Assembly: GCF_001921215.1 (NCBI RefSeq)
Contig: NZ_MSIF01000035.1
Span: 1-64,000 of the forward strand
Reading direction: 5' to 3'
Origin: Actinophytocola xinjiangensis
Lineage (GTDB): Bacteria > Actinomycetota > Actinomycetes > Mycobacteriales > Pseudonocardiaceae
Length of the DNA stretch: 64,000 bases
Numbering within the stretch: position 1 is the first letter of the stretch; each line of letters begins with the position of its first letter. Below the pieces are notes generated by a model that saw nothing but the letters and a program-made list of their open reading frames with translations, was not told the DNA's origin and searched no databases. Shown here piece by piece: positions 4,484 through 18,840 of the stretch. Position numbers and translations under genes: made by a program.

Positions 4484-5824
4484 ATGGCGCGCCTGTTCGG
4501 TACCGACGGTGTCCGTGGACTGGCCAACGGCGATCTCGGCCCTGAGCTGGCCCTGTCCGTCGCGGCGGCGGCCGCCAGGGTGCTGGCCGCGCACGACAGC
4601 TCCCACCGGCCGGTCGCGGTCGTCGGCCGGGACCCGAGGGCCAGCGGGGAGATGCTGCAGGCGGCCGTCGCCGCCGGGCTGACCTCGGCCGGCGCGGACG
4701 TCATGCAGGTCGGCGTGCTGCCCACTCCCGGCGTCGCCCACCTGGTCGGCGAGCTGAACGCCGACCTGGGCGTGATGATCTCCGCCTCGCACAACCCGAT
4801 GCCGGACAACGGGATCAAGCTGTTCGCGGACGGCGGGCACAAGCTGGCCGACACCATCGAGGACGAGATCGAGGCCACCATCGCCGGCGGGGCCGGGTTC
4901 ACCCGCCCGACCGGCGCCGGCGTCGGCCGGATCTACGACATCTCCGACGCCCTGGACCGCTACCTGGCGCACCTGCTCAAGGCCCTGCCCAACCGGCTGG
5001 AGGGCCTGCGCGTGGTGGTCGACTGCGCCAACGGCGCCGCCTGGGCCGCCGCCCCGCAGGTCTACCGGGAGGCCGGCGCCGAGGTCATCGCCATCCACGC
5101 CCTGCCCGACGGCGAGAACATCAACGACGGCTGCGGGTCGACCCACCTGGAGGACCTGCGCGAGACGGTCCTCGCCGAGCGGGCCGACCTGGGCATCGCC
5201 CACGACGGCGACGCCGACCGCTGTCTGGCCGTCGACGCGGCCGGCAACGAGATCGACGGCGACCAGATCATGGCGGTGCTCGCGCTGGCGATGAAGGAGG
5301 CCGGCGAGCTGACCGACGACACGCTGGTCGCCACCGTGATGAGCAACCTCGGCCTGCACCTGGCGATGCGCGAGCACGGGGTCACGCTGCGTACCACCGC
5401 CGTCGGCGACCGGTACGTGCTGGAGGAGCTGCGCGCCGGTGGCCTGTCGCTGGGCGGTGAGCAGTCCGGGCACCTGGTGCTGCCGGCCTACGCCACCACC
5501 GGCGACGGTCTGCTGACCGCGATGCGGCTGATGGCCAGGATCGCCGACACGGGGCGGCCGCTGGCCGACCTGGCCGGGGTGATGACCCGGTTGCCGCAGG
5601 TGCTGGTGAACGTGAAGGTCGCCGACAAGGCCGCGGTCGCCACGTCGGCGACGGTCAACGAGGCGGTCGCCGAGGTCGAGGCGAGCCTCGGCGAGACCGG
5701 CCGGGTGTTGTTGCGACCGTCGGGCACCGAACAACTCGTCCGGGTGATGGTGGAGGCACCGTCACACGAGGAGGCCGAGGCGGCCGCCCAGCGGCTGGTC
5801 GGCGTAGTCTCCGCGGCGGGCTGA
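4484..5824 (+). CDS. glmM: Phosphoglucosamine mutase
   Basis: 446 aa from the ATG at 4484, chosen for its GGAGG site and because the protein then begins [12 protein letters not shown], the standard GlmM N-terminus. The catalytic phosphoserine loop ISASHNP places the active Ser at residue 102, as in characterised GlmM. The metal loop DGDADRC (about residue 244) and the C-terminal phosphate-binding [11 protein letters not shown] are intact. It converts glucosamine-6-phosphate to glucosamine-1-phosphate for UDP-GlcNAc and peptidoglycan synthesis. glmS does not follow here, unlike in mycobacteria, where it lies nearby. Confidence 0.97.
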
Positions 5825-5852: not shown

Positions 5853-7217
5853 ATGCCGCAGGGCTTCGAGTACGACCCGACGATCGTTCGCGCCCGCGCC
5901 ATGACACTCCGAACTCCCCGCACGTCGGCGGCCGACTTCGGTGCCGCGTGGTCCTGTCGCGGGGCGGCTTTCCGGGTGTCGCTGGCGGTTCTGGCCGAGG
6001 ACCTCACCCACCTGCCGTCGACGCTCACCGCCGCCGACCTGGCCCCGCTGCGCACCTTCCCGCTTCGGGCGGCCGAGGCGAACGACGAGCCAGACGCCGC
6101 TGCCGCCGCGAAGCCCGCCTCCAGCGCCGGAGCCGCCTCCTCGGCCGAGGCCGGCGCGGAGACGACCGGGTCAGCCCCGGAGGCGGACGGGAAGGCCGAC
6201 ACCTCCGCCGGGGAAGCTGGAGCGGCCGCGAAGGCCGGTGCCGCTGCCGAGAAGGCCGAGGCCGGTGCCGTCGGGGAGGCCGAAGCCATCGCGCCCGAGG
6301 CGGCGGAGTTCTCCGGGGATTCGTGGGAGATCGTCGGCGGGGCGTTGGGCGGGGTGTCGGCGCAGCGGCGGGGGGAGCTGCGCGGGCTGCACTTCGGTCG
6401 GGTCCGGGAGGACCTGCGGCGGCTGGACGCGGTGGCGGACGCCCTCGACGGGCAGGCCCCGCTCACCGACTACGCCCGGGCGTTGCGCGGCGCCGTCGCG
6501 GGGTTGCGTTCGGCGTTGGGGGCGGCGCACCGGCGGCTGGTCGCCTACCGCGCGACGCTGGAGGCCGGCTCCGCCCCGGCGAACGCCACCGCGGACGTCA
6601 CGTCCGATGTGGACGATCTGCTCGGGTCGGCGCTGGCCGGGCTGCGGGCCGTGGTCGCGGTGCGGCCGTTCAGCGCGGGGCGGCAACTGCTGGCGCTTGG
6701 CCGCCAGGTCACGGTCGTCGACGGCGGGATCGACCACGTGACCGTCACCATCGCCGACGGGGCCGGCGACCCGACCACCTACGACCTGGACTTCGACGCG
6801 GCCAGCGGGCAGGCGCTCACCCCCGCCCGGACCCGCCCCAGTGCCCGGCGGATCCCGGCCGGTACCAACGGAAAGTGCGTCTTCGACCACCCTGGGGTGA
6901 CGGTCACCGTCGAACGGGACCTGTTCGACGCCGCCACCGTCATCCTGACTCTCGACGACGGCCGCGCCGAGCCCAGCACGCACACCGTCGCGGTGTCGCC
7001 GGCGCCCGTGCTGCCCCGGGTGCCCGAGCAGGCCGCCGGGTCCGACGAGATCGCCGCCGGCGGCGCTGCCGGCAGCACCGCCGGCAGCACCGCCGGCAGC
7101 GCAGTCGGCACCGCAGCCGGCACCGGGTGGAGCGTGCACGGCGACCTGTTCGACACCCGCGACCCGGTGCACAGCGTGCACGGCGTCCTGTCCCTCGACG
7201 ACCGACCGGGGAACTGA
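5853..7217 (+). CDS. Secretion-locus protein A: helical N-terminus, two beta-repeats, LFD C-terminal motif
   Basis: 454 aa, no known function. Residues 1-70 are helical with an Ala-Trp-Ser-Cys turn loosely like a WXG protein. Residues 75-150 are Ala/Glu/Lys-rich low complexity. Residues 150-270 are a predicted helical domain. From about 285 come two copies of a beta-repeat (VTVTIADGAGDPTTYDLDF and a second with LTLDDGRAEPSTH), separated by TNGKCVFD. The C-terminus has Trp-Ser-Val-His-Gly-Asp-Leu-Phe-Asp. Both the repeats and the C-terminal motif recur in the giant proteins at 7717 and 14130, which ties this gene to that operon although it lies just after glmM. A GGAG ribosome site precedes the ATG. 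Likely a substrate or scaffold of the secretion system; this is inference. Confidence 0.7.
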   Translation: MPQGFEYDPTIVRARAMTLRTPRTSAADFGAAWSCRGAAFRVSLAVLAEDLTHLPSTLTAADLAPLRTFPLRAAEANDEPDAAAAAKPASSAGAASSAEAGAETTGSAPEADGKADTSAGEAGAAAKAGAAAEKAEAGAVGEAEAIAPEAAEFSGDSWEIVGGALGGVSAQRRGELRGLHFGRVREDLRRLDAVADALDGQAPLTDYARALRGAVAGLRSALGAAHRRLVAYRATLEAGSAPANATADVTSDVDDLLGSALAGLRAVVAVRPFSAGRQLLALGRQVTVVDGGIDHVTVTIADGAGDPTTYDLDFDAASGQALTPARTRPSARRIPAGTNGKCVFDHPGVTVTVERDLFDAATVILTLDDGRAEPSTHTVAVSPAPVLPRVPEQAAGSDEIAAGGAAGSTAGSTAGSAVGTAAGTGWSVHGDLFDTRDPVHSVHGVLSLDDRPGN

Positions 7218-7372: not shown

Positions 7373-7720
7373 ATGACCAGCCACTCGACCTCCGGCGGCG
7401 TCGCAGCCCCGGAGGGGTACACCACCGACACCGACCAGATGGGTTCGTCGGGCCGCACCATCAACAACGCGGCCGAGGACGCGCAGGACGAGGTCGAGGA
7501 CCTGAGTCAGACCGAGCTCAGCGCGCAGGAGTTCGGCACCGCCCACTCCGAGAAGCACGGCGACTACTCGGCGGCGATCCAGCTGCTCGGCGAGGGCGCC
7601 ACCGCCATGTGCACCAACCTGATCTCCTTCGCCGGCCAGCTCGGCGGCGCCGGCCAGTCCTACGCGTCCGAGGAGGCCTCCGCGACCAGCACGGTCACCG
7701 CTTCGGGGAGTGACCTTTGA
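7373..7720 (+). CDS. EspC-like small type VII secretion protein
   Basis: 115 aa. The C-terminal half fits the EspC/WXG-like helical pattern (EFGTAHSEKHGDY, then SFAGQLGGAGQSYASEE), and Tyr97-ASE-Glu101 matches the YxxxD/E export signal. The N-terminal 45 residues are polar and acidic. No W-x-G turn is present, which is also the case for EspC-type partners. A GGGGGA ribosome site precedes the ATG. Its stop overlaps the TTG start of the 955-aa protein by 4 bases, so the two are translationally coupled, as expected of a small partner co-exported with a large substrate. Confidence 0.75.
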   Translation: MTSHSTSGGVAAPEGYTTDTDQMGSSGRTINNAAEDAQDEVEDLSQTELSAQEFGTAHSEKHGDYSAAIQLLGEGATAMCTNLISFAGQLGGAGQSYASEEASATSTVTASGSDL

Positions 7721-10584
7721 GCCACTCCTGGGAGGACGTCAGAGCCTTACTCGACGACCCGTTCGTCGACGCCGACACCAAGGAACACCTGCTCGGCGCC
7801 TACATGCAGGAAAACGGGATGGCGTACGGCTCCATGGTCCTGTCGGACAACATGCCGCCGGAGGTCCGCCAGTACTACGACCAGTACCCGATCCGGGGCG
7901 GCGACTTCGACCAGGGCTCGCTGGACGAGGTCTACGACCGGGCGCAGGGCCAGTCCGACGAGGCCGGCTACGCCTCGCGTCTCGTGCAGGAGGACCTCGC
8001 CGAGAACACGTCCACTTTGGACGGTATGACGGCGCCGACGTCCTCGTCCTCCGGGGTCGCGACCTCCGACGAGCTGTTCGACCTCGCCCGGCCGGCGCTG
8101 CGGGTGTTCGAGGACTTCATCCCGGTCAACGACAAGGTCCCCGGCGACTCCGTCGGCCCGGCCGGCCGGTTCACGATGGAGGACGTCAACACCAAGTTCG
8201 ACGAGCAGCTGGGCATCTCCTTCAAGAAGTTCCTGGAGGATGCCGAGCGGATCCGGGCCGCGCACGAGGCCATCACCAACCTGGACACGACCACCCAGAC
8301 CGAGCTGAACACCGTCTACCAGTCGTGGACCGGCCCGGCGGCCAACGCCTCCTACCAGTACTACTCCGAGCAGATCGAGCCCAACTCCGCCGAGCTGATC
8401 GAGTTCCTGGCCGCCACCCCGGACACCATCACCACCACGGTGGAGAACGTGTTCGCCGAGTGCAAGGCCAAGGCCGACTACGTGATGGGCATCTACACGC
8501 CCACGATCGGCAACGCCACCCCGGACATGGCCGGCAAGGTCGTGGCCCTGGCCAACGGTGACGGGCTGGACAGCGAGGACAAGATCCTCGAGGTCGCGGC
8601 CTGGGTCGACTCGGTGTGCGGCACCGACATCGAGAACCGCATCCGCGACGACGACTGCGAGCTCAACGACGAGAACAAGGCCTACGTGCAGAGCGAGTGC
8701 AAGGCCTGGATCCGGGACTCGTTCAACCCGCACCTGCACGAGAGCCTGTACGAGACGTTCGTCCAGACGTGTGAGGACACCCTGGACGCGATCAACGCCT
8801 ACTACGACGAGCTGAACAGCTACCTCGGCGACTACGAGAACGACTTCGGTGAGGCGCCCCCGCCGTTCGCCGGCGACCAGGGTCCCGGCGATCCCGGTGG
8901 TCCGGGTGACGGCGGCGGCTCGGGTGGCGGTTCCGGTGGGGGTTCGGGCGGTGGCTCGGGCGGCGGCTCCGGCGGTGGTTCCGGTGGTGGTTCCGGGGGC
9001 GGGAACCCGGAGATCCCCGAGATGCCGTCGCCGACGGGGCCCGGTGGCGGTCCCGGGGAGGCCCCGGAGGTGGAGACCCCCGAACTGCCCGGCGACCCGT
9101 CAGACCCGGCGGACCCGTCCGATCCGGACGCGTTCGCGCCGACGACACCGACGGCTCCCGGCGAGCAGGAGACCGTCACGATCGACGACGGGGAGCGTTC
9201 GATCGAGGTGACCAGCCCGGACGGCCAGGGCCAGGTGACGGTGACCGTCGATGACGGCTCCGGCGAGCCGAAGACCTACACCCTGGACTTCGGCGACGGC
9301 ACCGAAACCCCGGGCACGCCAGGCACTCCGGGTACGCCAGGCACTCCCGGGGCTCCGGGCGGCCCGGTGACCACCCAGCCCGGTTCGGCGTTCGGCCCGG
9401 AGGGCAGCCAGCCGCCGACGGTCGACGAACCGATCCAGCCCGGCGCCGACGGCAAGTGCGTCATCCAGGACGGCGACCTCACGATCACCGCCGAGCGTCC
9501 CGAGGGCTCCACCGACACCGTGATCGTCACCGTCGACGACGGCTCGGGTGAACCGGTGACCTACAACCTCGACTACTCGGGCGAGGAGGGTGAGGCCACC
9601 GCGCGTCCGCTGCCGGCCATGCCCGCCGCCCCCGGCGGCGGTGGCGGCGGGGAGGACGTCCGGATCATGCCGGCCCCGCTCGACCCCGACGGGCCCGGCG
9701 ACCCCGAGGCCCAGTTCGGCCTGCCCGACCCGCGCGGCCAGTTCGCCGACACCGGCGCCCCGCTGCCCCAGGGCCAGTTCGTCGACGGTGGGCCCGGTGG
9801 CGGCCCGGGCGGTCTGCCGGATCCGCGCGGCCAGTTCGCCGACGGTGGCTTCGGCGGTCCGGGCGGCCCGGACCCCCAGGGCCAGTTCGGCGGCGGCCCC
9901 GGCGGTGGCTCCGGTGGCGGCCCCGGTGGGCTGCCCGATCCGCGGGGGCAGTTCGCCGACGGCGGGTTCGGTGCTCCCGACCGGCAGGGGCCCTTCGGTG
10001 GCCTGCCGGACCCGCAGGGCCAGTTCGGCGGCGGTCAGGGTGGTGGTCCGGGCGGTGGTCCGGGTGGTCTGCCGGACCCGCGTGGGCAGTTCGCCGACGG
10101 CGGGTTCGGCGGCGAGCCGGGGCGGTTCGGCCCGATGCCCGCCGAGTTCGACGTGCGGGACCCGGGGGCCCAGTTCGGGGTGACGTCCGCGCAGTCGGCC
10201 GTCGGCGGGTTCGGCGAGGGGCTGTTCGACGAGGACGGCGGCGGCTCCGGCGAGGCCGGGTCCTTCGGCGTGCCGCGCGAGGGCGACTACACCGGGACGC
10301 CCGGTGACGGGCCGGGTGAGGCTGGACTCGCCAGCGCGGCGGAGGATGATGGAGCCCAGCAGCACGACCAGCGGGACGGGTCCTCGGGCGGCGGTTCGGA
10401 CGGCAGCGCGTCCGGCATGGCCGGCGGGATGGGCGGCGGCATGCCGATGATGGGCGGCGGTGGCGGTGGTGGTGGCGGCGGTGAGCAGGAACGGGCCGGC
10501 AGCCAGTGGCGCACCACCGGCGACCTGTTCGACGACGTCACCGATGTCCAGGTCCGTGGTGCCTTCGGCGAGGGCAGCCGGTAG
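7717..10584 (+). CDS. Giant WXG-like, Gly/Pro-rich secretion-locus protein B1
   Basis: 955 aa. The TTG start at 7717 overlaps the previous stop and aligns with the paralogue at 14130. Residues 1-390 are helical and conserved with that paralogue, starting with SWEDVRALLDDPF and including a W-x-G-like turn at Trp204 (SWTGPAANASYQ). Residues about 395-430 are a (GGGS)n linker, followed by two beta-repeats of the type VTVTVDDGSGEPKTYTLDF (about 490-530 and 590-625), a PGT repeat, and about eight copies of a (L)PDPRGQF-like motif (about 665-810). The end is Gly/Met-rich with a C-terminal QWRTTGDLFDD motif. The fold order resembles a secreted stalk or matrix protein, but no homologue of known function is recognised. 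Conserved export signals are not obvious; export via the EspC-like partner is inferred. Confidence 0.75.
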   Translation: MSHSWEDVRALLDDPFVDADTKEHLLGAYMQENGMAYGSMVLSDNMPPEVRQYYDQYPIRGGDFDQGSLDEVYDRAQGQSDEAGYASRLVQEDLAENTSTLDGMTAPTSSSSGVATSDELFDLARPALRVFEDFIPVNDKVPGDSVGPAGRFTMEDVNTKFDEQLGISFKKFLEDAERIRAAHEAITNLDTTTQTELNTVYQSWTGPAANASYQYYSEQIEPNSAELIEFLAATPDTITTTVENVFAECKAKADYVMGIYTPTIGNATPDMAGKVVALANGDGLDSEDKILEVAAWVDSVCGTDIENRIRDDDCELNDENKAYVQSECKAWIRDSFNPHLHESLYETFVQTCEDTLDAINAYYDELNSYLGDYENDFGEAPPPFAGDQGPGDPGGPGDGGGSGGGSGGGSGGGSGGGSGGGSGGGSGGGNPEIPEMPSPTGPGGGPGEAPEVETPELPGDPSDPADPSDPDAFAPTTPTAPGEQETVTIDDGERSIEVTSPDGQGQVTVTVDDGSGEPKTYTLDFGDGTETPGTPGTPGTPGTPGAPGGPVTTQPGSAFGPEGSQPPTVDEPIQPGADGKCVIQDGDLTITAERPEGSTDTVIVTVDDGSGEPVTYNLDYSGEEGEATARPLPAMPAAPGGGGGGEDVRIMPAPLDPDGPGDPEAQFGLPDPRGQFADTGAPLPQGQFVDGGPGGGPGGLPDPRGQFADGGFGGPGGPDPQGQFGGGPGGGSGGGPGGLPDPRGQFADGGFGAPDRQGPFGGLPDPQGQFGGGQGGGPGGGPGGLPDPRGQFADGGFGGEPGRFGPMPAEFDVRDPGAQFGVTSAQSAVGGFGEGLFDEDGGGSGEAGSFGVPREGDYTGTPGDGPGEAGLASAAEDDGAQQHDQRDGSSGGGSDGSASGMAGGMGGGMPMMGGGGGGGGGGEQERAGSQWRTTGDLFDDVTDVQVRGAFGEGSR

Positions 10585-10598
10585 CAGGGGAGGGTGAG

Positions 10599-11108
10599 AT
10601 GGGCGCGCACGACAGGGCGGCCAAGGCCCGGGAACGCATGGACCAGGTCCGCCGGGAGATGTCCGAGCGGCGGGCGCTGCGTGCCCGCAAGGCCCGCGAG
10701 GCCAAGGACCGCTCGGCGGACAACCTGCGCAAGCAGGGAGCGGTCTCCGCGCAGATGACCAAGCACCTCAAGGAGATCGGCCGGCGGCGCGCGCAGGCCG
10801 GCGGCTGGGCCACCGAGAAGACCGAGCGTGACCGCGACTACGTCATGGGGTTCGGCAGCGAGGACGAGGACGGCAAGCAGCGGTTCACCTTCCGGCCGCC
10901 GCCGCCCCGGGCGCGGACCCAGCCGGGCGGCATCGGGTCCCTTGAGGACGATCCGCCGGCGCCCGAGCCGGCCCTGCCGCCGCCCCCACCGCCCCCGCCG
11001 CCGCCGCCCGCGCCCAGGGCGGTGCCGCCGCGCCGGCCGGCCGCCCGGCGCGACGAGATCGACGACGACGACGACTTCTCCAACCAGTCCTGGATGCGGC
11101 GCAAGTGA
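10599..11108 (+). CDS. Small basic/acidic DFSNQ protein C1
   Basis: 169 aa from the ATG at 10599 (GGGGAGGG ribosome site); the longer upstream frame lacks support. Residues 1-65 are a highly charged helix rich in Arg/Lys/Glu (DRAAKARERMDQVRREMSER). Then come a conserved patch, AGGWATEKTERDRDYVMGFG, and a poly-Pro region (about residues 120-140). The C-terminus is DDDDDFSNQSWMRRK. The paralogue C2 at 13611 keeps the helix, the patch and the C-terminal motif. Cytoplasmic by composition, with no signal or membrane segment. Its gene lies 14 bases after B1 and its stop overlaps the ACP start, so it belongs to the same operon. Possibly a chaperone or adaptor for B1. Confidence 0.7.
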   Translation: MGAHDRAAKARERMDQVRREMSERRALRARKAREAKDRSADNLRKQGAVSAQMTKHLKEIGRRRAQAGGWATEKTERDRDYVMGFGSEDEDGKQRFTFRPPPPRARTQPGGIGSLEDDPPAPEPALPPPPPPPPPPPAPRAVPPRRPAARRDEIDDDDDFSNQSWMRRK

Positions 11109-11356
11109 ACGCGCGGGTCGCCGAGCGGGCCGGGGAGATCAAGGCGGTGGTGTGCCGGGTGCTGGAGGTCGACGAGGCCGCCGTGTCCCCGTCGGACAAC
11201 TTCGTCCAGGTCCACGGCGCCGACTCGATGAAGCTGATCGAACTGCTGGCGAACCTGGAGATCGAGTTCGACGTCGACGTCGACTCCGCCGAGTTCGACC
11301 GGATGGTCGACCTGAACGGCGTCTACGACGTGTTGAGCACCGCGCTGGAGGGGTGA
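11105..11356 (+). CDS. Acyl carrier protein
   Basis: 83 aa, the normal size for a discrete ACP. Helix II begins with Gly-Ala-Asp-Ser41-Met, where Ser41 is the expected 4'-phosphopantetheine attachment site, and the surface is acidic, as in other ACPs. The GTG start overlaps the preceding stop by 4 bases. It is followed after 6 bases by a ketosynthase gene, so it most likely carries the acyl or malonyl chain for that enzyme. It is not the housekeeping fatty-acid ACP by context, since no fabD/fabH/fabG is near. Confidence 0.9.
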   Translation: MNARVAERAGEIKAVVCRVLEVDEAAVSPSDNFVQVHGADSMKLIELLANLEIEFDVDVDSAEFDRMVDLNGVYDVLSTALEG

Positions 11357-11362
11357 GGCGGC

Positions 11363-12550
11363 GTGCGTCGGGTGGTGGTCACCGGCCTCGGCGTGGTGTC
11401 GAGCATCGGGACCGGGGCGGTCGAGTACGCCGCCGGGCTGCGGGCCGGGCGCAGCGGTGCCCGGCCGATCGGCGCGTTCGACACCACCGGGTTCGCGCAC
11501 GCGGTGGGCTGCGAGGTCGTCGGGTTCGAGCCTCGGCGGTGGCTGGCCGCGCCCGCGACGCTGCCCAGGGCCGCCCAGTTCGCCGCGTCGGCGGCCACGA
11601 TGGCGGTGCGTGACGCCGGCCTCGACGGGCTGGCCGACGCGCGCACGATGATCTCCGTCGGCACCACCGACGGCAGCGGTGACCGGGGCGAGCGGATCGC
11701 CGGGGCGGTCGTGCGGGGTGCGGACGTCACCGCCGCGCAGGTGGCCCAGGTGCCGGCGTCGTGGCTGTCGGTCGGTGTCGCCCGCGAACTCGGGCTGTCC
11801 ACTGTGGACGTCTCGACGGTGGCGACGGCGTGCGCCGCCGGCAACTACGCCATCGGCGACGGCTACGACGCGGTCGCCACCGGCGACGTCGACGTCGCGC
11901 TGTGCGGCGGCGCGGACGCCATGTGCCGCATGACCTTCACCGGGTTCTACCGCCTCGGCGCGGTCGACCCGGTGCACTGCCGGCCGTTCGACACCGACCG
12001 CAAGGGCATCCTCACCGGCGAGGGCGCCGCCGTGCTGGTGCTCGAACCGCTCGACGCCGCGCTCGCGCGCGGCGCCCGGATCTACGCCGAGGTCCTCGGC
12101 CACGGCCTCAACTGCGACGCCGGCCACCCGGTGGCCCCCGACCGCGAGTCGGTGGCCCGCTGCATGCGCCTGGCCATCGAGGACGCCGGGCTGGTACCCG
12201 GCCAGGTCGACCTGATCTCCGCGCACGGCACCGGCACCCGGGCCAACGACGTCACCGAGTGCGGCGCCATCCGTGACGTGTTCGGCGACACACCGCCGCG
12301 CACGGTGGCGGTCAAGTCGATGCTCGGGCACACCATGGGCGCGGCCAGCGCGCTGTCGGCCGCCGCGTGCGTGCTGGCCCTGGCGCACGGGTTCGTCCCG
12401 CCGACGATCAACCACGTCCGCACCGACCCGGAGTGCGCGGTGGACTGCGTGCCGAACACCTCGGTCGAGGCTGACCTGCGGGTGGTGCAGAACAACGCGT
12501 TGGCCTTCGGCGGCAACAACTCCGTCGTGCTGTTCGGCAGGAAACCCTGA
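11363..12550 (+). CDS. Beta-ketoacyl-ACP synthase (KS-alpha, intact active site)
   Basis: 395 aa, thiolase fold, FabF/KS-alpha type. It starts RRVVVTGLGVVSSIG. The catalytic set is complete: Cys157 in TACAAG, His288 in HGTGTRAND, Lys318 and His323 in KSMLGHTMGA. The C-terminal NNALAFGGNNSVVLF loop is present. It would condense an ACP-bound malonyl unit with an acyl starter. Its position between an ACP and a Cys-less partner copies the minimal unit of type II polyketide and aryl-polyene systems, but no ketoreductase, dehydratase, acyltransferase or cyclase accompanies it. The operon otherwise encodes secretion-type proteins, so the product may act on, or with, an exported protein (inference). 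Confidence 0.92.
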   Translation: MRRVVVTGLGVVSSIGTGAVEYAAGLRAGRSGARPIGAFDTTGFAHAVGCEVVGFEPRRWLAAPATLPRAAQFAASAATMAVRDAGLDGLADARTMISVGTTDGSGDRGERIAGAVVRGADVTAAQVAQVPASWLSVGVARELGLSTVDVSTVATACAAGNYAIGDGYDAVATGDVDVALCGGADAMCRMTFTGFYRLGAVDPVHCRPFDTDRKGILTGEGAAVLVLEPLDAALARGARIYAEVLGHGLNCDAGHPVAPDRESVARCMRLAIEDAGLVPGQVDLISAHGTGTRANDVTECGAIRDVFGDTPPRTVAVKSMLGHTMGAASALSAAACVLALAHGFVPPTINHVRTDPECAVDCVPNTSVEADLRVVQNNALAFGGNNSVVLFGRKP

Positions 12551-13614
12551 TGGCGCTCGAGATCGCCGCCTGGTCGGCCACCTCCCCGTTCGGCCACGGC
12601 CACGACGCGTTCGCCGCCGGGGTGGCCACCGGCGCGCCGGCCCCGGCCGCCCAGGTGTCCGACGAGTGGTTCCCCGGCCCGGACACCGCCCACCTGGTGC
12701 CCGACTTCGACATCCAGGACCTGTTGGGGCGCAAGGGAACCGGCGTGATGGACCGGACCACGGCGCTGGCCGTGCACACCATCGGCCTGCTCGGCGAGCA
12801 GGACCAGCGGGTGCGGATCGACGCCAGGACCGGGGTCGTACTGGGCACCACCAGCGGCAGCACGCTCACCCAGTTCACCTTCACCGCGCACTCGCTGACC
12901 CGCCGCAAGCCCTACCTGGTCGACCCGGCGCAGATGCCCTTCGCCCTGATGAACAGTGCCGCCGCGCGCGGCGCCAGCTGGCACGGGCTGACCGGGCCGA
13001 ACACCACGCTGGCCGCCGGGCGGCTCTCGGCGGTCGCCGTGCTGCGCTACGCCGACCGGCTGCTGCGCACCGGCCGGGCCAGCGGCCTGTTCGCCGGCGC
13101 CGCCGAGGAGTACAGCGGGCCGCGCGCACTGCTGGAGCGCCGCGCCGGCAACCGGGCGCGCCTGGGCGAGGGCTGCGCGGTGCTGTTCGTCCGGGCGGTA
13201 CCGGAAGGGAACCGATCGGCGGCCGCGACGGTCGTAGCGTTGGACACCCGCCTCGCCGGGGACGGCGAGCAGCGGGCCGCCCTCACCGCGAGCCTGCGGC
13301 ACGCCCTCACCGGGGTGGCGCCGGAGGAGGTGTGGGGTCTGGCCGTGTCCGGAGTGGACGGCGTGGAGAGCGAAGCGGTACGCGAGGTGTTGGGGATGCC
13401 GGTCGAGCGGGTCGTCGAGCCGAGCCGGCTCGTCGGCGACACCGGTGCGGCGTCGGGCGTGTTCGGCCTGGCGGCGTTGCTGGCGTTGGCCGAACGTGCC
13501 GGCGCCGCTCGGGGCCGGGTCGCGGTCGCCACGGCCGTCGAACGGGACGGGATGGTCGGCTGCGTGGTGGTCCGCCTGCCCGGCGGACCGGTGGGTGAGG
13601 GGAGCGGGACATGA
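12550..13614 (+). CDS. Ketosynthase-like partner lacking the catalytic cysteine (chain-length-factor-like)
   Basis: 354 aa. The start ATG shares one base with the KS-alpha stop (TGATG), implying coupled synthesis and a heterodimer. The thiolase-fold pattern is recognisable (MALEIAAWSATSPFG, GVVLGTTSGS, then GDTGAASGVFGLAALLALAE near the C-terminus), but at the nucleophile elbow it has TTLAAGR where KS-alpha has TACAAG, so the cysteine is missing (Leu in a by-eye alignment). The HGTGT and GHTMGA histidines are also not evident. It is about 40 aa shorter than KS-alpha. By analogy with chain-length factors it would shape the active-site tunnel instead of catalysing. Confidence 0.8.
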   Translation: MALEIAAWSATSPFGHGHDAFAAGVATGAPAPAAQVSDEWFPGPDTAHLVPDFDIQDLLGRKGTGVMDRTTALAVHTIGLLGEQDQRVRIDARTGVVLGTTSGSTLTQFTFTAHSLTRRKPYLVDPAQMPFALMNSAAARGASWHGLTGPNTTLAAGRLSAVAVLRYADRLLRTGRASGLFAGAAEEYSGPRALLERRAGNRARLGEGCAVLFVRAVPEGNRSAAATVVALDTRLAGDGEQRAALTASLRHALTGVAPEEVWGLAVSGVDGVESEAVREVLGMPVERVVEPSRLVGDTGAASGVFGLAALLALAERAGAARGRVAVATAVERDGMVGCVVVRLPGGPVGEGSGT

Positions 13615-14120
13615 GCGTGCGGGACCGGGCGGCACTGGCGATCGCGCGGATGGACCAGACCCGGCGGGAGATGGCCGAACGCCGGTCGCTGCGCGAACGC
13701 AACTCCCGTGAGCTGCTCGCCAGGACGGCCAAGGCCATGCGTGAGCAGGTGCCGGGGATGATCGAGGCGGCCAAGCAGGCCGCGGCCGTGGCCCAGCACC
13801 GGGAGAAGGCCGGCGGCTGGGCGACCACGAGCACCGACCGCGACCGCAGCCACGTCATGGGTTTCGGTATCGACGAGGAGAACGCGGGCGGCTACCGGCC
13901 GCCGGCCGCCCAGCCGGGCAGGACCGCGTTCGTGCCCGGCCAGGACGACGAGCGGCCGGCCGGACAGGCGCCCAGCGCCCCGCCGGCCCCGCCGGCCCCG
14001 GCCGCCCCGGCTCCGGCCGCGCCGCCGGTGAGAGCGGCGCGCGCCCGGCCCCCGGACGAACTCGACCTCGACGACGAAGACGACTTTTCCAACCAGTCCT
14101 CGTGGCTGCGCAACCGGTAG
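13611..14120 (+). CDS. Small basic/acidic DFSNQ protein C2
   Basis: 169 aa, the same length as its paralogue C1 (10599). It shares the charged N-terminal helix (ARMDQTRREMAERRSLRER), the AGGWATTSTDRDRSHVMGFG patch near residues 68-87, an Ala/Pro-rich middle and the acidic C-terminal DDEDDFSNQSSWLRNR. The ATG overlaps the stop of the ketosynthase-like gene by 4 bases. It precedes B2 by 9 bases, so each giant B protein has its own adjacent C protein. Function unknown. Confidence 0.72.
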   Translation: MSVRDRAALAIARMDQTRREMAERRSLRERNSRELLARTAKAMREQVPGMIEAAKQAAAVAQHREKAGGWATTSTDRDRSHVMGFGIDEENAGGYRPPAAQPGRTAFVPGQDDERPAGQAPSAPPAPPAPAAPAPAAPPVRAARARPPDELDLDDEDDFSNQSSWLRNR

Positions 14121-14129
14121 GGGTAGTTG

Positions 14130-16454
14130 ATGAGCAGGTCGTGGACCGAGGTCAAGGCGCTACTCGACGACCCCTACGTCGACGGGGACACCAAGGAGCA
14201 TCTGCTCGCCTCGTACATGAACGAGAACGGTTATCCGTTCAACATGGACGAGCTCGACCCCGAGGTGCTGGAGTACGCCGAGAGCTACTCCCTGGAGGGC
14301 GGTGACTTCGACCAGGGTTCGCTGGACGAGGTCTACGACCGGGCGCAGGGCGAGTCCGACGAGAACGGGTACCAGAACCGGCTGACCACCGAGGCGCTGG
14401 ACGAGGCGCGGACCACCATGGACGACCTGGGGTCGCCGACGCTCACCAGCGGCCCGGAGACCTCCGACGAGATCCTCGAACCGGCGCGCGAGGGCCTGGA
14501 CGTGTTCGAGACGTGGTTACCGATCAACGACCAGGTGCCGGCCGGCATGCTCGGCCGCCACGGCCGGATCGCCCTGGGCGACCTGCAGACCCGCTACGAC
14601 GAGCAGCTGGGCATCAACTTCCGCAAGTTCCTCACCGACGCCGACCGGATCCGCACGGCCAACACCGCGCTCACCGAGCTGAACACCACGACCGAGGGCG
14701 AGCTGAACAGGACCTACGAGTCGTGGACCGGCCCGGCGGCCAACGCCTCCTACCAGCACTGGTCCGAGCAGATCACGCCGAACATCGCCGAGCTGCTTGA
14801 GGCGACCGCCGCGGCGCCGGGGCTCATCGAGACGACCGTGGAGAACCTCTACGCCGAGGTCCGCTACAAGGCCGAGCAGGTCATCGACCTGTACCAGCCG
14901 CTGATCGGCCTGGCCACCCCGGACATCGCCGACTCGCTGGTGAAGATGGCCGCCGGTGAGGACATCGGCAAGGACCGGCAGATCCAGGTGGCGTCCTGGC
15001 TGGACCGGACCTACGGCACCGAGTACGAGGACTTCTCCAACAGCATGGACCTCGTCTGGGAGATGGTCGTCATGCAGATGGTCGAGTTCTCCGGCAACTG
15101 GGTGCGCAACGCCTTCAACCCGGAGCTGCACGACTACCTGTACGAGAACTTCATCAGCCTGTGCGACGACACGAAGGAAGCGGTCGACGGCTACTACGAG
15201 GAGCTGAACTCCGCCCTCGGCGAGTACGACAACGACTTCAGCGAGGCCGGCGCCATGCCGCCCGGCCCGGAGGGCCCCGGCGGCCCGGGAGACCCCGCCG
15301 GCCCCGGCGGTCCCGGCGGCACGGGCCCCGGACCCGGCGGCATGGGTCCCGGTGGCGGTCCTGGCGGCGGTGGCCCCGGCGGCGGTGGTCCTGGCGGTGG
15401 TGGTCCCGGTGGTGGCGGTCCCGGTGGCGGCTCGCCGGCCATGCCGGAGATCCCCGAGATGCCGATGCCGACCGCGCCGTCGGGCCTGACCGACCCCTCG
15501 GGCGCGGGCGGCGGTCCCGGCGGCGGTCCCGGTGGTGGCCTCGGCGGCGGCCCGGGCGGCATCCCCGGGATGCCCTCGCCCGGTGACCCCACCGGTCCCG
15601 GCGGGATGCCGCTGGTGCCGGGCATGCCCGGGATGCCGGGCGGCGGCCCGGGAACCCCCGGCGCCCCCAAGCAGGTCACGATCCGCGACGGCGACCGCAC
15701 GATCACCGTCGGCCAGCCCGACGAGCAGGGCCGCAGCACGGTGACCGTGGACAACGGCACCGGCGAGCCGTCGGAGTACGTCGTGGACTGGACCGACGAC
15801 CCCGGCGAGACCGCCGAGGACGGCGTGATCCGCGCGGTCGACGGCAAGGCCGTGATCAAGGACGGCGACGCCGAGATCACCCTGGAGCAGCTGCCCGGCC
15901 CGACCGACCGGCTGAAGATGACCGTCGACGACGGCACCCCGGAGACCTACGACGTCGACTTCGGCCCGGACACCGAGGTGCCCGGCCTGCCCGACCCGGC
16001 GGCCCCGTCCCTGCCCGGCGCGTCCAGCTTCGGCCCGGACGGCGGCGGCGCGGGTGGCGGCGCGGGTGGCGGCGGCCTCGGTGGCGGCGGCGGAGGTGGG
16101 CTCGGCGGTGGTGGCGGCGGTGCGTTCAGCGGCGGCGAGACACCCGGTGTCGGTGCCGGCGCCGGTGGTGGCACGGCCGGCGGCGCGATGGTCGGCGCGG
16201 CCGCGCCCGACGGCGGCGACCAGCGGGCGGCGGCGGCCGGTGGCGCGGCGGCCGGCGGTGCCGGTGGCGGCGCCCCGATGGGCGGCATGCCGATGGGCGG
16301 CATGGGTGGCGGCAGTGGCCAGGGCGGAGACCAGACCCGGCAGAGCAAGTGGCGCACCACCGGCTCGCTGTTCGACGACCCCGACCCGGCGGCCAACTTC
16401 AGCGGTGTCGTCGGCCGCGACCCGGCGGAGAAGCCCGCCAAGCCCAAACGCTAG
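14130..16454 (+). CDS. Giant WXG-like, Gly-rich secretion-locus protein B2
   Basis: 774 aa from the ATG at 14130, preferred over the TTG three bases earlier because MSRSW then aligns with MSHSW of B1. Residues 1-380 parallel B1: ALLDDPYVDGDTKEHLL, the W-x-G turn at Trp199 (SWTGPAANASYQ) and FNPELHDYLYENF. A (GPGGG)n linker follows, then two beta-repeats (VTVDNGTGEPSEYVVDW and MTVDDGTPETYDVDF) joined by VDGKAVIKDGD, a Gly/Ala-rich tail, and SKWRTTGSLFDD near the C-terminus. The DPRGQF repeats of B1 are absent. It ends the operon, and its TAG stop overlaps the stop of the convergent hydrolase gene. Probably exported or surface-associated; not shown. Confidence 0.75.
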   Translation: MSRSWTEVKALLDDPYVDGDTKEHLLASYMNENGYPFNMDELDPEVLEYAESYSLEGGDFDQGSLDEVYDRAQGESDENGYQNRLTTEALDEARTTMDDLGSPTLTSGPETSDEILEPAREGLDVFETWLPINDQVPAGMLGRHGRIALGDLQTRYDEQLGINFRKFLTDADRIRTANTALTELNTTTEGELNRTYESWTGPAANASYQHWSEQITPNIAELLEATAAAPGLIETTVENLYAEVRYKAEQVIDLYQPLIGLATPDIADSLVKMAAGEDIGKDRQIQVASWLDRTYGTEYEDFSNSMDLVWEMVVMQMVEFSGNWVRNAFNPELHDYLYENFISLCDDTKEAVDGYYEELNSALGEYDNDFSEAGAMPPGPEGPGGPGDPAGPGGPGGTGPGPGGMGPGGGPGGGGPGGGGPGGGGPGGGGPGGGSPAMPEIPEMPMPTAPSGLTDPSGAGGGPGGGPGGGLGGGPGGIPGMPSPGDPTGPGGMPLVPGMPGMPGGGPGTPGAPKQVTIRDGDRTITVGQPDEQGRSTVTVDNGTGEPSEYVVDWTDDPGETAEDGVIRAVDGKAVIKDGDAEITLEQLPGPTDRLKMTVDDGTPETYDVDFGPDTEVPGLPDPAAPSLPGASSFGPDGGGAGGGAGGGGLGGGGGGGLGGGGGGAFSGGETPGVGAGAGGGTAGGAMVGAAAPDGGDQRAAAAGGAAAGGAGGGAPMGGMPMGGMGGGSGQGGDQTRQSKWRTTGSLFDDPDPAANFSGVVGRDPAEKPAKPKR

Positions 16455-17251
16455 GCGGGGCGGTCGGTGCCCTTGAGATCGGCGTCCAGGACCGCCTGGA
16501 AGCGGGTCTCGCCGGCCAGGTGGACCAGGAAGAACGCGGTCAGCATGATCCGCGCGACCCGCTGGGTGGTCGACTCGGCCTTGCCGGGCAGCAGCAGCGT
16601 CGACCAGTGGCGGCCCTCGGTGAACCCCAGGTGGGACGCCTTGGTGACCGTCCGCAGCTGCGCCGGGCCGGCCCAGTTCGCGGCGATCGCGCCCACGTTG
16701 CCCGCCGTCGGCGCGACCAGGTCCTGGCCGGCGGCCAGGTGCAGCGAGGGCATGGCACAGCGGCTGGCGGCGTCGGAGGCGTAGGGCCGGGTCTGGGTGG
16801 CGGCCAGGGTCGCGACCGCGCGCACCCGGGAGTCGTCGGCCGCCGCCAGCACCGCGCAGCCGCCGCCGACCGAGTGCCCGGCCAGCCCCAGCTTCTCCGG
16901 GTCGACGCTGATGTCGCCCTCGCCCAGCCGCACCCCGACACACACGTCCAGCGCGGTCCGCAGGTCGGCGGCGAACAGCCGGTGCGAGGCCAGCGGCCCG
17001 AGCTGGGTGCCCGGCGCGGCCACCACGAACCCCCAGGACGCGAGGTGGCGCAGCAGACCCCGGTAACGCGCGGGCGGCTGCAACCAGCCGTGTCCGAAGG
17101 ACACCGCCGGTAGACCGAGTCCGCTCGTTGGCGTGTACACCACGCCCGGAAGGCCGACCAGGGCCAGGTCGCCGCGTAGCACCCGGTGGGGCCCTCGGTG
17201 GGTCAGCTCCTCGATCAGGTGTTTCGGCTTGGTCACCAGCTTGGGTGGCAT
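16451..17251 (-). CDS. Alpha/beta hydrolase family protein (dienelactone hydrolase/esterase-like)
   Basis: 266 aa. Alpha/beta-hydrolase features are intact: oxyanion segment FGHGW (about residue 54), nucleophile elbow Gly-His-Ser127-Val-Gly-Gly, Asp177 in AAGQDLVAP and His207 in ASHLGF. No signal peptide. The His-Gly near the oxyanion hole and the overall layout resemble chlorophyllase/PAF-acetylhydrolase-like esterases, but the substrate cannot be told. Its stop overlaps that of B2 through the tetranucleotide CTAG. Start ATG at 17251; the divergent nnr gene begins about 75 bases away. Confidence 0.85.
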   Translation of the reverse strand: MPPKLVTKPKHLIEELTHRGPHRVLRGDLALVGLPGVVYTPTSGLGLPAVSFGHGWLQPPARYRGLLRHLASWGFVVAAPGTQLGPLASHRLFAADLRTALDVCVGVRLGEGDISVDPEKLGLAGHSVGGGCAVLAAADDSRVRAVATLAATQTRPYASDAASRCAMPSLHLAAGQDLVAPTAGNVGAIAANWAGPAQLRTVTKASHLGFTEGRHWSTLLLPGKAESTTQRVARIMLTAFFLVHLAGETRFQAVLDADLKGTDRPA

Positions 17252-17325
17252 GGTCGATGACCCTAGCGACAGTTCCGTCGTTACGCTCTCAAGGAGTCCG
17301 GAACGGCCCGCGGGTGGAGTGGCGC

Positions 17326-18840
17326 GTGTATGGCGTGTGGACGGTTGACCAGGTCAGGGCCGCGGAGGACGTGGCGCTCGCGAAGGCCCCCGACGGGGCG
17401 CTGATGCGCCGGGCCGCCTTCGCGGTCGCGGTGCGCGCGGCGGCGATGCTGCGCGCGGCCACCGGCGGGGTCGCCGGCCGGCACGTCGTGCTGCTCGTCG
17501 GCTCCGGCAACAACGGCGGCGACGCGCTGTGGGCGGGGGCCTTCCTGCGCCGCCGCGCCGTCGCGGTCACCGCCGTGCTGTTCGCCCCCGACCGCACCCA
17601 CCCGCCCGGCCTGGCCGCGTTGCGCCGCGCCGGCGGCCGGGTCGTCGACGCCGGCGACCAGGTCGCCGCGGGCCGCCGTGACCTGGTCACCGGCGCCGAC
17701 CTGGTGGTCGACGGGATCGTCGGGCTGTCCGCGCGTGGCCCGCTGCGCCCGGCCGCCGCCGCGTGGGTCGCCGCCGTCACCTCGCCGGTGCTGGCCGTGG
17801 ACCTGCCCAGCGGCGTCGACCCGGACACCGGCCACGCCGAGCCGTCGGCGGTGCGCGCCGACGTGACGGTGACCTTCGGTGCCCACAAACCCGCGCACGT
17901 GCTGGCCGCCCCGCGCTGCGGCCTGGTCCAGCTGGTCGACCTGGGCCTGGACCTGCCGGCGCCGGACCTGGAGGTGCTCGGCCCGGCCGACGTCGGGCGG
18001 GCGTGGCGGCTGCCCGGACCGGCCGACGACAAGTTCACCCAGGGCGTGACCGGGGTGGCGGCCGGCTCGGCGACCTACCCCGGCGCGGCCGTGCTGGCCG
18101 TCGGGTCGGCCGTGCGGGCGACGTCCGGGATGGTCCGCTACGCCGGCTGGGCGGCCGACGAGGTGCGTTCCCGCTGGCCGGAGGTGGTGGCCACCGGCTC
18201 GGTCGCCGACGCCGGCCGGGTGCAGGCGTGGGCGGTCGGGCCGGGGCTGGGCACCGGGCAGGCCGGCCGGGACGTGCTGGCCGCCGTCCTCGACGCGGGC
18301 GTTCCGACCTGCGTGGACGCCGACGGCATCACGCTGCTGGCCCGCTACCCCGACCTGTGGGACCACCGCGAGCCGGACCGGACCGTGGTGCTGACCCCGC
18401 ACGACCGCGAGTTCGCCCGGATCGCCGAGCCGCTGGGCATCGAGTTGGGCACCGACCGGGTGGCCGCGACCCGCGAGCTGGCCCGCCGGCTGAACACGGT
18501 CGTGCTGCTCAAGGGCCACGCGACGGTGATCGCCTCGCCGGGCGGGCGCACGCTGGTCAACGCGGCCCGCTCGGCGTGGCTGGCCACCCCCGGCTCCGGT
18601 GACGTGCTGACCGGGCTGGTCGGCGCCGCGCTGGCCGCCGGCGGCGACCCGCTGGTGGCGGCCGGGGCGGCGAGCTGGCTGCACGTGCGGGCCGGTGAGC
18701 TGGCCGCCGGTGGCGCGCCGACCTCGGCGTCGGCGGTGGTCGCCGCGGTGCCAGGGGCGGTCCGCGCGGCGCTGGTGTCGGCCGGCCGGGCGCCGGGGGA
18801 GACGGGGGAGCTGTGCGACCATGAACGGCGTTATGGCTGA
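17326..18840 (+). CDS. nnr: Bifunctional NAD(P)H-hydrate epimerase / ADP-dependent NAD(P)H-hydrate dehydratase
   Basis: 504 aa with the GTG start at 17326, chosen because the protein then begins YGVWTVDQVRAAE and aligns with mycobacterial Rv3433c, and GGAG lies upstream. The N-terminal epimerase (about 1-215) shows VGSGNNGGDALWAG and VDLPSGVDPDTG. The C-terminal kinase-like dehydratase (about 225-504) shows DDKFTQGVTGV, GPGLGTG, VDADGITLL, LTPHDREFARI and the ATP/ADP-site TPGSGDVLTG. It repairs hydrated, damaged NAD(P)H. The 3' end overlaps the alr start by 20 bases, so the two are probably cotranscribed. Confidence 0.95.
   Translation: MYGVWTVDQVRAAEDVALAKAPDGALMRRAAFAVAVRAAAMLRAATGGVAGRHVVLLVGSGNNGGDALWAGAFLRRRAVAVTAVLFAPDRTHPPGLAALRRAGGRVVDAGDQVAAGRRDLVTGADLVVDGIVGLSARGPLRPAAAAWVAAVTSPVLAVDLPSGVDPDTGHAEPSAVRADVTVTFGAHKPAHVLAAPRCGLVQLVDLGLDLPAPDLEVLGPADVGRAWRLPGPADDKFTQGVTGVAAGSATYPGAAVLAVGSAVRATSGMVRYAGWAADEVRSRWPEVVATGSVADAGRVQAWAVGPGLGTGQAGRDVLAAVLDAGVPTCVDADGITLLARYPDLWDHREPDRTVVLTPHDREFARIAEPLGIELGTDRVAATRELARRLNTVVLLKGHATVIASPGGRTLVNAARSAWLATPGSGDVLTGLVGAALAAGGDPLVAAGAASWLHVRAGELAAGGAPTSASAVVAAVPGAVRAALVSAGRAPGETGELCDHERRYG

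Follow-up and report, generated by a model that had tools for sequence, protein, structure and literature searches.

An acyl carrier protein-ketosynthase trio coupled to genes of a putative type VII export pair in Actinophytocola xinjiangensis and its relatives

In the window, the 64,000-nucleotide stretch of Actinophytocola xinjiangensis contig NZ_MSIF01000035.1 that was analyzed, genes for an acyl carrier protein (ACP), a ketosynthase (KS), and a Cys-less KS partner (CLF) lay within a group of genes for putative type VII secretion cargo (EspC-like, B, and C). The functional linkage of the acyl genes and EspC-B-C is well supported. Because the trio lies in a cargo gene group and an unrelated pair, a fatty acyl-AMP ligase (FAAL) with an ACP, has joined a group of the same kind in other genera, these data suggest joint production of the cargo and an acyl chain. 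Judged from sequence, the reading that we tentatively favor, at somewhat less than an even chance, is that the cassette provides a dedicated acyl-ACP whose chain would be attached to the EspC-B export pair or would travel with it; both the fate of the chain and export as such we infer.

EspC-like, B1, C1, ACP, KS, CLF, C2, and B2 formed one co-directional run on the forward strand (positions 7373 to 16454; open reading frames re-read) downstream of glmM, with successive junctions of -4, 14, -4, 6, -1, -4, and 9 bases, which bore out the near-gapless arrangement described in the first-pass annotation. The run opened with the EspC/WXG100-like small partner (7373 to 7720; 115 amino acids [aa]; assigned by Pfam, alignment, and motif count), which carries a YASEE export-type motif, and continued with B1 (7717 to 10584; 955 aa), in which a WXG-type domain of about 380 aa was followed by a Gly/Pro-rich linker, two short Ig-like (Big_9) stretches, and a C-terminal WRTTGDLFDD motif. 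C1 (10599 to 11108; 169 aa), a charged protein with the C-terminal end DDDDDFSNQSWMRRK, and C2 (13611 to 14120; 169 aa), the second DFSNQ protein, were assigned from sequence and the family model. Between them lay the ACP (11105 to 11356; 83 aa; Pfam PP-binding, 5.7e-11), the KS, of the highly reducing type II polyketide synthase (PKS) kind (11363 to 12550; 395 aa), and the CLF partner (12550 to 13614; 354 aa). The KS residues named at first pass (C157, H288, K318, and H323) and Ser41 of the ACP (in GADSM) were all present upon re-reading, and the partner indeed carried Arg at the Cys position, with Asp at the second His. B2, the second giant WXG-type protein (14130 to 16454; 774 aa; ATG at 14130 preferred over TTG at 14127), closed the run; the doubling of B and C was not general among related loci. 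On the left, glmM, the usual left neighbor of the cassette (4484 to 5824, forward strand; named by sequence recognition, with homologues likewise placed in fetched loci), was followed by a shortened EspC'-B' fusion (5853 to 7217, forward strand), the start of which matched EspC' of locus L041 and later pieces its B', and which probably remains from a second cassette that lay upstream. The convergent right neighbor was an alpha/beta hydrolase (16451 to 17251, reverse strand; GHSVGG; Pfam PETase-like, 8.3e-12).

The proposed embedding in a type VII secretion-type operon needs correction: the run lay beside an ESX-4-type locus but outside the secretion-machine operon. It started after glmM, and between it and the ESX-4-type genes stood an esx pair, a gene on the opposite strand, rplM, and rpsI. 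At the start of the window, a gene cut by the contig start and encoding the C-terminal portion of an Hsp70-like protein of the ESX locus (38 to 733; phmmer match to a 606-aa L041 protein [HSP70, 1.5e-24]) preceded genes for an acidic DEDFSQ protein belonging to the ESX-4-type locus (764 to 1411; from sequence, with no Pfam or NCBIfam match) and two WXG100 (esx) proteins (1649 to 1963 and 2017 to 2304; Pfam WXG100, 6.1e-15 and 6.1e-16), all on the forward strand. The C-family model labeled 128-aa genes at the position of the 764 to 1411 gene in L172 and L186. Contig C48 (9.3 kb), which carried genes for an Hsp70-like protein, an EccC-type FtsK, EccD, a subtilase (Peptidase_S8), and EspG, ended in the N-terminal part of the Hsp70-like protein and, given a gene split between contigs, would adjoin the start of the window. 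ESX-4-type parts were found piecewise, namely, EccC-type, EccD, and Peptidase_S8 genes on C48, the esx pair in the window, and an EccC-type gene with an esx pair in L041, where an Hsp70-like gene and the cassette stood in the same stretch; no single stretch read showed EccC, EccD, mycosin, and an esx pair together. EccB was found only on contig C45, in two copies, and not on C48. The accessible part of PMC4791881 gives the ESX-4 components as a WXG-FtsK core plus eccB, eccD, mycP, and rv3446c; the window resembles such a locus in that it carries an esx pair and the tail of an Hsp70-like gene next to rplM-rpsI-glmM. The components given there do not include the cassette.

The name EspC is used here as a label of convenience, as the Pfam EspC model did not match the window protein. 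WXG100 matches of the EspC-like protein (E = 0.0014) and B1 (E = 0.013) were both under the curated Pfam cut-off, and we therefore describe the two as working like a type VII substrate pair and not as members of the class. The EspC/WXG-like identities assigned at first pass were thus weak by Pfam but gained from family data. W204 and G206 were the only invariant columns across 74 B domains, which puts the WXG in the long partner, and YxxxD/E, taken as a loose pattern with no prediction of helix positions, occurred in all EspC genes beside trios (20/20) and near FAAL genes (10/10), i.e., in 30/30 near acyl modules, and in 98 of 108 EspC genes overall. In the type VII substrate pairs EspC/EspA, PE/PPE, and EsxEF/CpnT, the genes for a small YxxxD/E protein and a long WXG-type protein likewise lie side by side and overlap. 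Pfam recognized neither a PE or PPE domain nor a toxin domain in B1. A role in anti-phage defense was rejected, six window proteins being without a PADLOC match.

Among 150 genomes of this family of soil actinobacteria, the B domain was found in 112, and the EspC-B-C cassette was common; the ACP-KS-CLF trio stood at the cassette in 21 (the source genome included) of nine genus groups, and named strains of Actinophytocola, Prauserella (eight species listed), and Crossiella carried the trio locus. These counts exclude L055 (one gene called), G066 (on a contig of 4.5 kb), and 15 named loci (L132 to L141 and L143 to L147) that duplicate G-handle loci; 14 of the 15 had contigs of equal length, and L138 had an identical gene table on a contig longer by about 2 kb. 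Loci were read mainly in family genomes whose B matches were not weak, and about a dozen weaker CLF matches were set aside. B of L041, recovered by a separate search, was overlooked by the gene caller, as were C of L054, L059, and L171 and EspC of L171. Beyond the window, 20 fetched loci also had the trio next to the cassette, in the same direction in 16 and inverted in four, and the association of the two is therefore not due to chance. Translational coupling of C and ACP was seen as a 4-base overlap in 12 of the 14 co-directional pairs, and in the four Crossiella-type loci the inverted trio still lay between C and EspC. No KS, FAAL, or ACP gene was present in 52 of 76 glmM/glmS-linked loci with B, and L112 and L113, nested among trio carriers, were without KS and CLF, which, from the B tree, would have been lost there. 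The trio is thus accessory and, being absent from most relatives examined, not part of the core secretion unit. Independence of the trio from the B and C genes, which would count against an acyl role, was found in part (these 52 loci, L112, and L113). The trio kept to one B clade in 24 of 24 trio-labeled rows.

In the B tree (label, KS or FAAL within four genes; B domains of <250 aa dropped), 33 of the 34 trio or FAAL labels fell in one starred clade of 43 rows, the 34th belonging to the second cassette of L121, so that labeled rows made up 33/43 inside the clade versus 1/53 outside. The ten unlabeled rows of the clade comprised eight with no acyl gene nearby and two (L113 and the second B of L047) with only an ACP nearby. 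Trio KS formed one group, the four inverted Crossiella-type loci included, in a quick KS tree (SH-aLRT of 93, under the star threshold of 95).

The KS matched Pfam ketoacyl-synt (1.3e-24) and its C domain (2.8e-31), and the CLF matched ketoacyl-synt (3.3e-7). Catalytic residues were intact throughout: the C/H/K/H set in 22/22 trio-type KS and the ACP Ser in 22/22, with Arg in place of Cys in all 20 readable CLF (of 21, one unreadable) and Asp in place of the second His in 21/21. Iga11-Iga12-Iga10 (PDB 6kxd, 6kxe, and 6kxf) was the best PDB match for both subunits (KS, 1.3e-144; CLF, 1.8e-58; CLF profile, 3.3e-93). Asp113 and Arg210 of Iga11, from the highly reducing type II PKS for ishigamide, align with D103 and R197 of the trio KS, and each was present in 22/22 trio KS as placed by this alignment; in the accessible parts of PMC8358021 and PMC7949117, Asp113 is assigned to the release of beta-ketoacyl-ACP for KR and DH and Arg210 to ACP contact. 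Neither residue is exclusive to trio KS, since KS from other clusters also carried the release Asp (22/27) and the ACP-contact Arg (27/27). The ishigamide system, a metabolite cluster, has its own KR (Iga13) and DH (Iga16) according to the accessible part of PMC8358021. The trio instead belongs to an operon for secretion cargo, and no KR or DH gene was recognized in 21/21 trio intervals (glmM to the alpha/beta hydrolase gene or glmS, or as far as the stretch extended). Genes in these intervals were cassette labeled except for 12, all of which were scanned with Pfam and showed no reductase or dehydratase domain. Because no dedicated KR or DH is encoded, we file the trio as a KS-CLF-ACP core and not as a complete highly reducing type II PKS cluster. 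The lack of KR and DH noted at first pass was therefore upheld, and their suggested borrowing from primary metabolism fits both this absence and the retained Iga11-type Asp; KR and DH would thus be supplied from outside the locus. An ordinary biosynthetic cluster was rejected as an identity for the trio, which is tied to EspC-B-C and without recognizable KR or DH, unlike the KS/CLF paralogues of the source genome (L009 to L011) in seemingly ordinary biosynthetic clusters (judged from gene order).

An acyl module of a second kind, non-homologous to KS-CLF, was found in genera other than those with the trio. A FAAL gene preceded EspC-B-C in nine loci of seven genomes; an ACP was called in eight, and in seven of these eight it was overlapped by the FAAL gene. 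The five ligases tested of the nine (L116, L118, L119, L121, and L188), each followed by an ACP, gave their best scores to FAAL models (about 402 to 487 bits), under the curated cut-offs. The FAAL-ACP pairs of the FadD32, FadD28, and MbtM kinds are alike in the ligase models that score best and in the ACP that follows; they differ in that the partners in the cassette are EspC-B-C and not a PKS or NRPS. In six FAAL loci, the stretch read contained neither glmM nor glmS.

We propose that EspC-like and B would be exported as a pair by an ESX-4-linked type VII system, that C would join them as a third partner, probably in the cytosol, and that in one B clade the operon often carries its own putative acyl-ACP supplier. 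In other genera the FAAL would load a ready-made fatty acid onto the ACP, so that the product common to both modules would be a fatty-type acyl-ACP. The EspC-B(-C) complex would receive or bind its chain ahead of export, giving a lipid-bearing protein at the surface. The earlier suggestion of a short acyl or ketide chain serving the giant proteins gains real support from the retained residues, the C-ACP coupling, the single B clade, and the parallel FAAL-ACP module, but the trio is accessory. HlyC/RTX (acyl-ACP-dependent toxin acylation) and PorH/PorA (O-mycoloylation) offer a working analogy, an exported protein receiving an acyl chain, and differ in that no protein acyltransferase, HlyC-like, or mycoloyltransferase gene was recognized in the cassette. 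Acyl-type loci were also without any acyltransferase gene specific to them; the alpha/beta hydrolase was rejected as a module-specific transferase, as it occurred with and without acyl modules (18/20 trio loci and 60/65 other glmM/glmS-linked loci); a transferase is presumed. As an acyl acceptor, also presumed, the Cys of the EspC AMC motif was present in the 16 non-Crossiella trio EspC proteins and was rejected as a universal site because EspC of the four Crossiella-type loci and of FAAL loci lacked it.

That the acyl chain ends up in a free lipid or polyene, which would leave the cell with the EspC-B assembly or be held by it with no covalent link to protein, is unlikely in our estimate. Such a product would suit a KS/CLF nearest to a polyene-making pair, the Asp that in Iga11 releases ketoacyl-ACP, and the missing protein acyltransferase; however, no thioesterase, amide synthase, or transporter gene was recognized in the trio interval, and the loading of a fatty acid already made, as by a FAAL, would be a strange route to a special metabolite. 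The tight operon coupling, the ACP common to modules that differ in enzyme, and the absence of the trio or of KS/CLF from L112 and L113 among carriers could also be read as a device in which the acyl-ACP or KS-CLF-ACP complex senses fatty-acid supply and gates cargo assembly or expression. We consider this improbable, as full catalytic conservation in 22/22 KS exceeds the need of a sensor and no regulator gene was recognized in the cassette.

At least as improbable is a bystander gene set in a permissive glmM-glmS site with an unrelated product. Most cassette-bearing relatives are indeed without the trio, and the paralogues in L009 to L011 have seemingly ordinary biosynthetic settings, but the reading frames are coupled, the link survives inversion and is restricted to one B clade, and the FAAL module is independent of the trio, with neither glmM nor glmS in the stretch read for six of its loci.

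The favored reading, a dedicated acyl-ACP serving the export pair, can be extended. Possibly, though this fuller version is more doubtful, the acyl-ACP line was gained on two or more occasions, its enzymes (KS-CLF or FAAL) being unrelated, and EspC-B would be acylated in the cytosol by the ACP of the operon and exported as a lipoprotein-like surface assembly in non-mycolic bacteria. We know of no type VII cargo that is lipidated by an ACP-dependent route, and the family is not known to make mycolic acids. Absence of mycolic acids from sampled non-mycolata orders, Pseudonocardiales included, is given in the accessible part of PMC4791881. In a full-text literature search (titles and abstract openings; open papers), no acyl module beside a type VII substrate pair or in a type VII locus was found, and in the accessible part of PMC11004387 ketosynthase and type VII secretion were mentioned in unrelated places only. 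If true, the proposal would describe a new way of making lipid-bearing exported proteins, give the ESX-4-type system of non-mycolic actinobacteria an assayable biochemical role, and account for a KS-CLF pair without reductive enzymes of its own.

Two further candidates near FAAL or FAAL-like genes were rejected: the FAAL-like gene of L068 and L072 as a cassette module, since it lies beyond alr and not beside the cassette, and a P450 as a general partner, since it stood beside only three FAAL loci (L116, L119, and L121), was too short for a complete P450, and passed the Pfam cut-off in L116 alone. A divergent 374-aa gene near L118 was of protease type (Pfam alpha-lytic protease prodomain), and genes of the same length were seen near L164, L173, and L182 (L173 and L182 compared by eye).

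The co-directional run at 7373-16454 claimed in the first-pass annotation was confirmed upon re-reading the ORFs and junctions from the sequence, as were the positions of the active residues it had named. In one direction, the run encodes an EspC/WXG100-like protein (EspC being a label of convenience), the giant WXG-type protein B1, the charged DFSNQ protein C1, an acyl carrier protein (ACP), a ketosynthase (KS), its Cys-less chain-length-factor partner (CLF), C2, and B2, with junctions of -4, 14, -4, 6, -1, -4, and 9 bases. Pfam confirmed the identities of ACP, KS, and CLF; WXG100 matches of the EspC-like protein and B1 were subthreshold only. The stretch at 5853-7217 resembles a shortened EspC'-B' fusion; upstream EspC' and B' are separate and longer in three fetched loci (L041, L042, and L043).

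The distribution of the ACP-KS-CLF trio was assessed in a tree of B domains (96 rows, quick IQ-TREE search, SH-aLRT support), each row labeled by the presence of KS or of a fatty acyl-AMP ligase (FAAL) within four genes. A single 43-row B clade (support 99, starred) takes 24/24 trio-labeled and 9/10 FAAL-labeled rows (Fisher test, P ~1e-15, which describes related rows and is not a probability), the tenth FAAL-labeled row being the second cassette in L121, outside the clade. The remaining rows of the clade are two with ACP only and eight without a module. Two loci nested among trio carriers, one lacking C and the trio (L112) and one with ACP and no KS or CLF (L113), are likely losses of module genes because of that position.

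Trio loci usually read glmM-EspC-B-C-ACP-KS-CLF-(alpha/beta hydrolase, opposite strand)-glmS, with a 4-base C-ACP overlap in 12/14 pairs; in four Crossiella-type loci (L078, L131, L165, and L183) the trio is inverted and retains its position between C and EspC. FAAL precedes EspC-B-C in nine loci from seven genomes and two genus groups, with ACP called in eight; FAAL and ACP overlap in 7/8 pairs, ACP lies at most 5 bases from EspC in 5/8, and six of the nine loci have no glmM or glmS within the stretch read. All five ligases tested scored best to FAAL models, at scores below the curated cutoffs. P450-like proteins (253 to 310 amino acids) adjoin FAAL on the opposite strand in L116 (13170-13931), L119 (6500-7384), and L121 (9052-9984), with the Cys loop retained and the front part apparently missing.

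The closest PDB match of both KS and CLF was 6kxd, the Iga11-Iga12 pair of ishigamide synthesis, in which, according to PMC7949117 and PMC8358021, an Asp of Iga11 promotes beta-ketoacyl-ACP release; this Asp and the ACP-contact Arg are common to Iga11 and the trio KS. Cys, His, Lys, His, the release Asp, and the ACP-contact Arg were each present in 22/22 trio KS, and Arg replaces Cys in 20/20 readable CLF. In a KS tree of 57 rows (22 trio, 27 other-cluster, and 8 outlying KS), trio KS formed one group (SH-aLRT 93, below the 95 needed for a star), adjoined by KS from other clusters. The 21 trio intervals yielded no recognisable KR or DH gene; the 12 genes in them that bear no cassette label were all scanned, with no such domain in any. 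Three further CLF paralogues of the same genome (L009, L010, and L011; 44 to 46%) lie in gene clusters that appear biosynthetic and contain genes of reductase size.

Two unrelated enzyme sets, KS-CLF and FAAL, whose only common product is acyl-ACP, became associated with predicted cargo operons of a single clade, which favours a fatty-type acyl-ACP over an aromatic polyketide as the product needed and suggests the EspC-B-C proteins as its putative user. The acyl chain might be transferred to protein, bound as a ligand, or coexported. The main gap in this reading is that no acyltransferase specific to acyl-type loci was found among those examined, and against it also count the majority of relatives, which manage without an acyl module, and the 10/43 rows of the clade with neither trio nor FAAL; the module thus represents an accessory line added to an old cassette. 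The earlier proposal of an acyl chain made for the giant proteins accordingly is supported in kind, with two acyl modules at one B clade, but not in full, most relatives having none. The parts are of known kinds; their union in a type VII secretion cargo cassette was not found among the matches listed by full-text searches of open-licence PMC papers.

The N-terminal domain of B, searched as a profile, matched 112/150 Pseudonocardiaceae genomes and 22/150 in an order-wide draw (family members included); a broader profile matched 41/197 genomes in a class-wide draw, there outside the order in the WXG stretch only, with one weak exception (G381). Of 95 loci retained from the 20-kb regions opened at CLF and B matches, 85 adjoined glmM or glmS, and 20 of these 85 contain KS and CLF (window not counted in either). 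Neither KS, FAAL, nor ACP was present in 52/76 glmM/glmS-linked loci having B. With the window counted, the trio occurs at the cassette in 21/150 family genomes and nine genus groups, carriers by gene order including Actinophytocola gossypii, A. oryzae, and A. algeriensis, Amycolatopsis arida, Qaidamihabitans albus, eight Prauserella species, two Crossiella strains, and one metagenome-assembled genome whose locus ends at a contig end. In another family of the order, a distant B relative lies between glmM and glmS without acyl genes (L129); by gene order, its counterpart may be the mycobacterial Rv3440c-Rv3439c pair.

Among 74 B domains, only W and G of WXG were invariant. YxxxD/E was present in EspC in 20/20 cases beside trios and 10/10 near FAAL genes; with or without an acyl module, 79/97 B genes encode a WRTxGxLF- or YRIDGxxF-type tail motif and 89/90 C genes an acidic tail. 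To the right, glmS was within the stretch of 76/79 fetched loci having the alpha/beta hydrolase. No glmS lies between hydrolase and nnr-type gene at 16451-18840 of the window, in a draft assembly whose best match to a congener's GlmS was only 32% identical.

Left of the run, the genes glmM, rpsI, and rplM were recognised by sequence; also on this side are two paired WXG100 proteins (Pfam, 6e-15 and 6e-16), an acidic protein with DEDFSQ, and an Hsp70-like gene of which the contig start leaves only the end. Contig C48 (9.3 kb) of the same genome holds an Hsp70-like gene front, an EccC-type FtsK protein (86% identical to its counterpart adjoining the L041 cassette), EccD, a subtilase, and EspG; we infer that it adjoins the window, no end overlap being found between them. 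L041 holds in a single stretch an EccC-type gene, an Hsp70-like gene, the esx pair, rplM, rpsI, glmM, and the cassette. The cassette is therefore a neighbour of an ESX-4-type locus, outside its machine operon. EccB was found solely on a contig other than C48. An EspG gene at 8196-9011 of L225 (Pfam, 3.4e-30) adjoins ESX-4-type EccD and subtilase genes, whereas espG enters only after ESX-4 in the model of PMC4791881. In L172 and L186, a gene of the ESX locus that lies between the esx pair and the Hsp70-like gene is labeled by the C-family model as well, and C may thus belong to a wider secretion-partner family.
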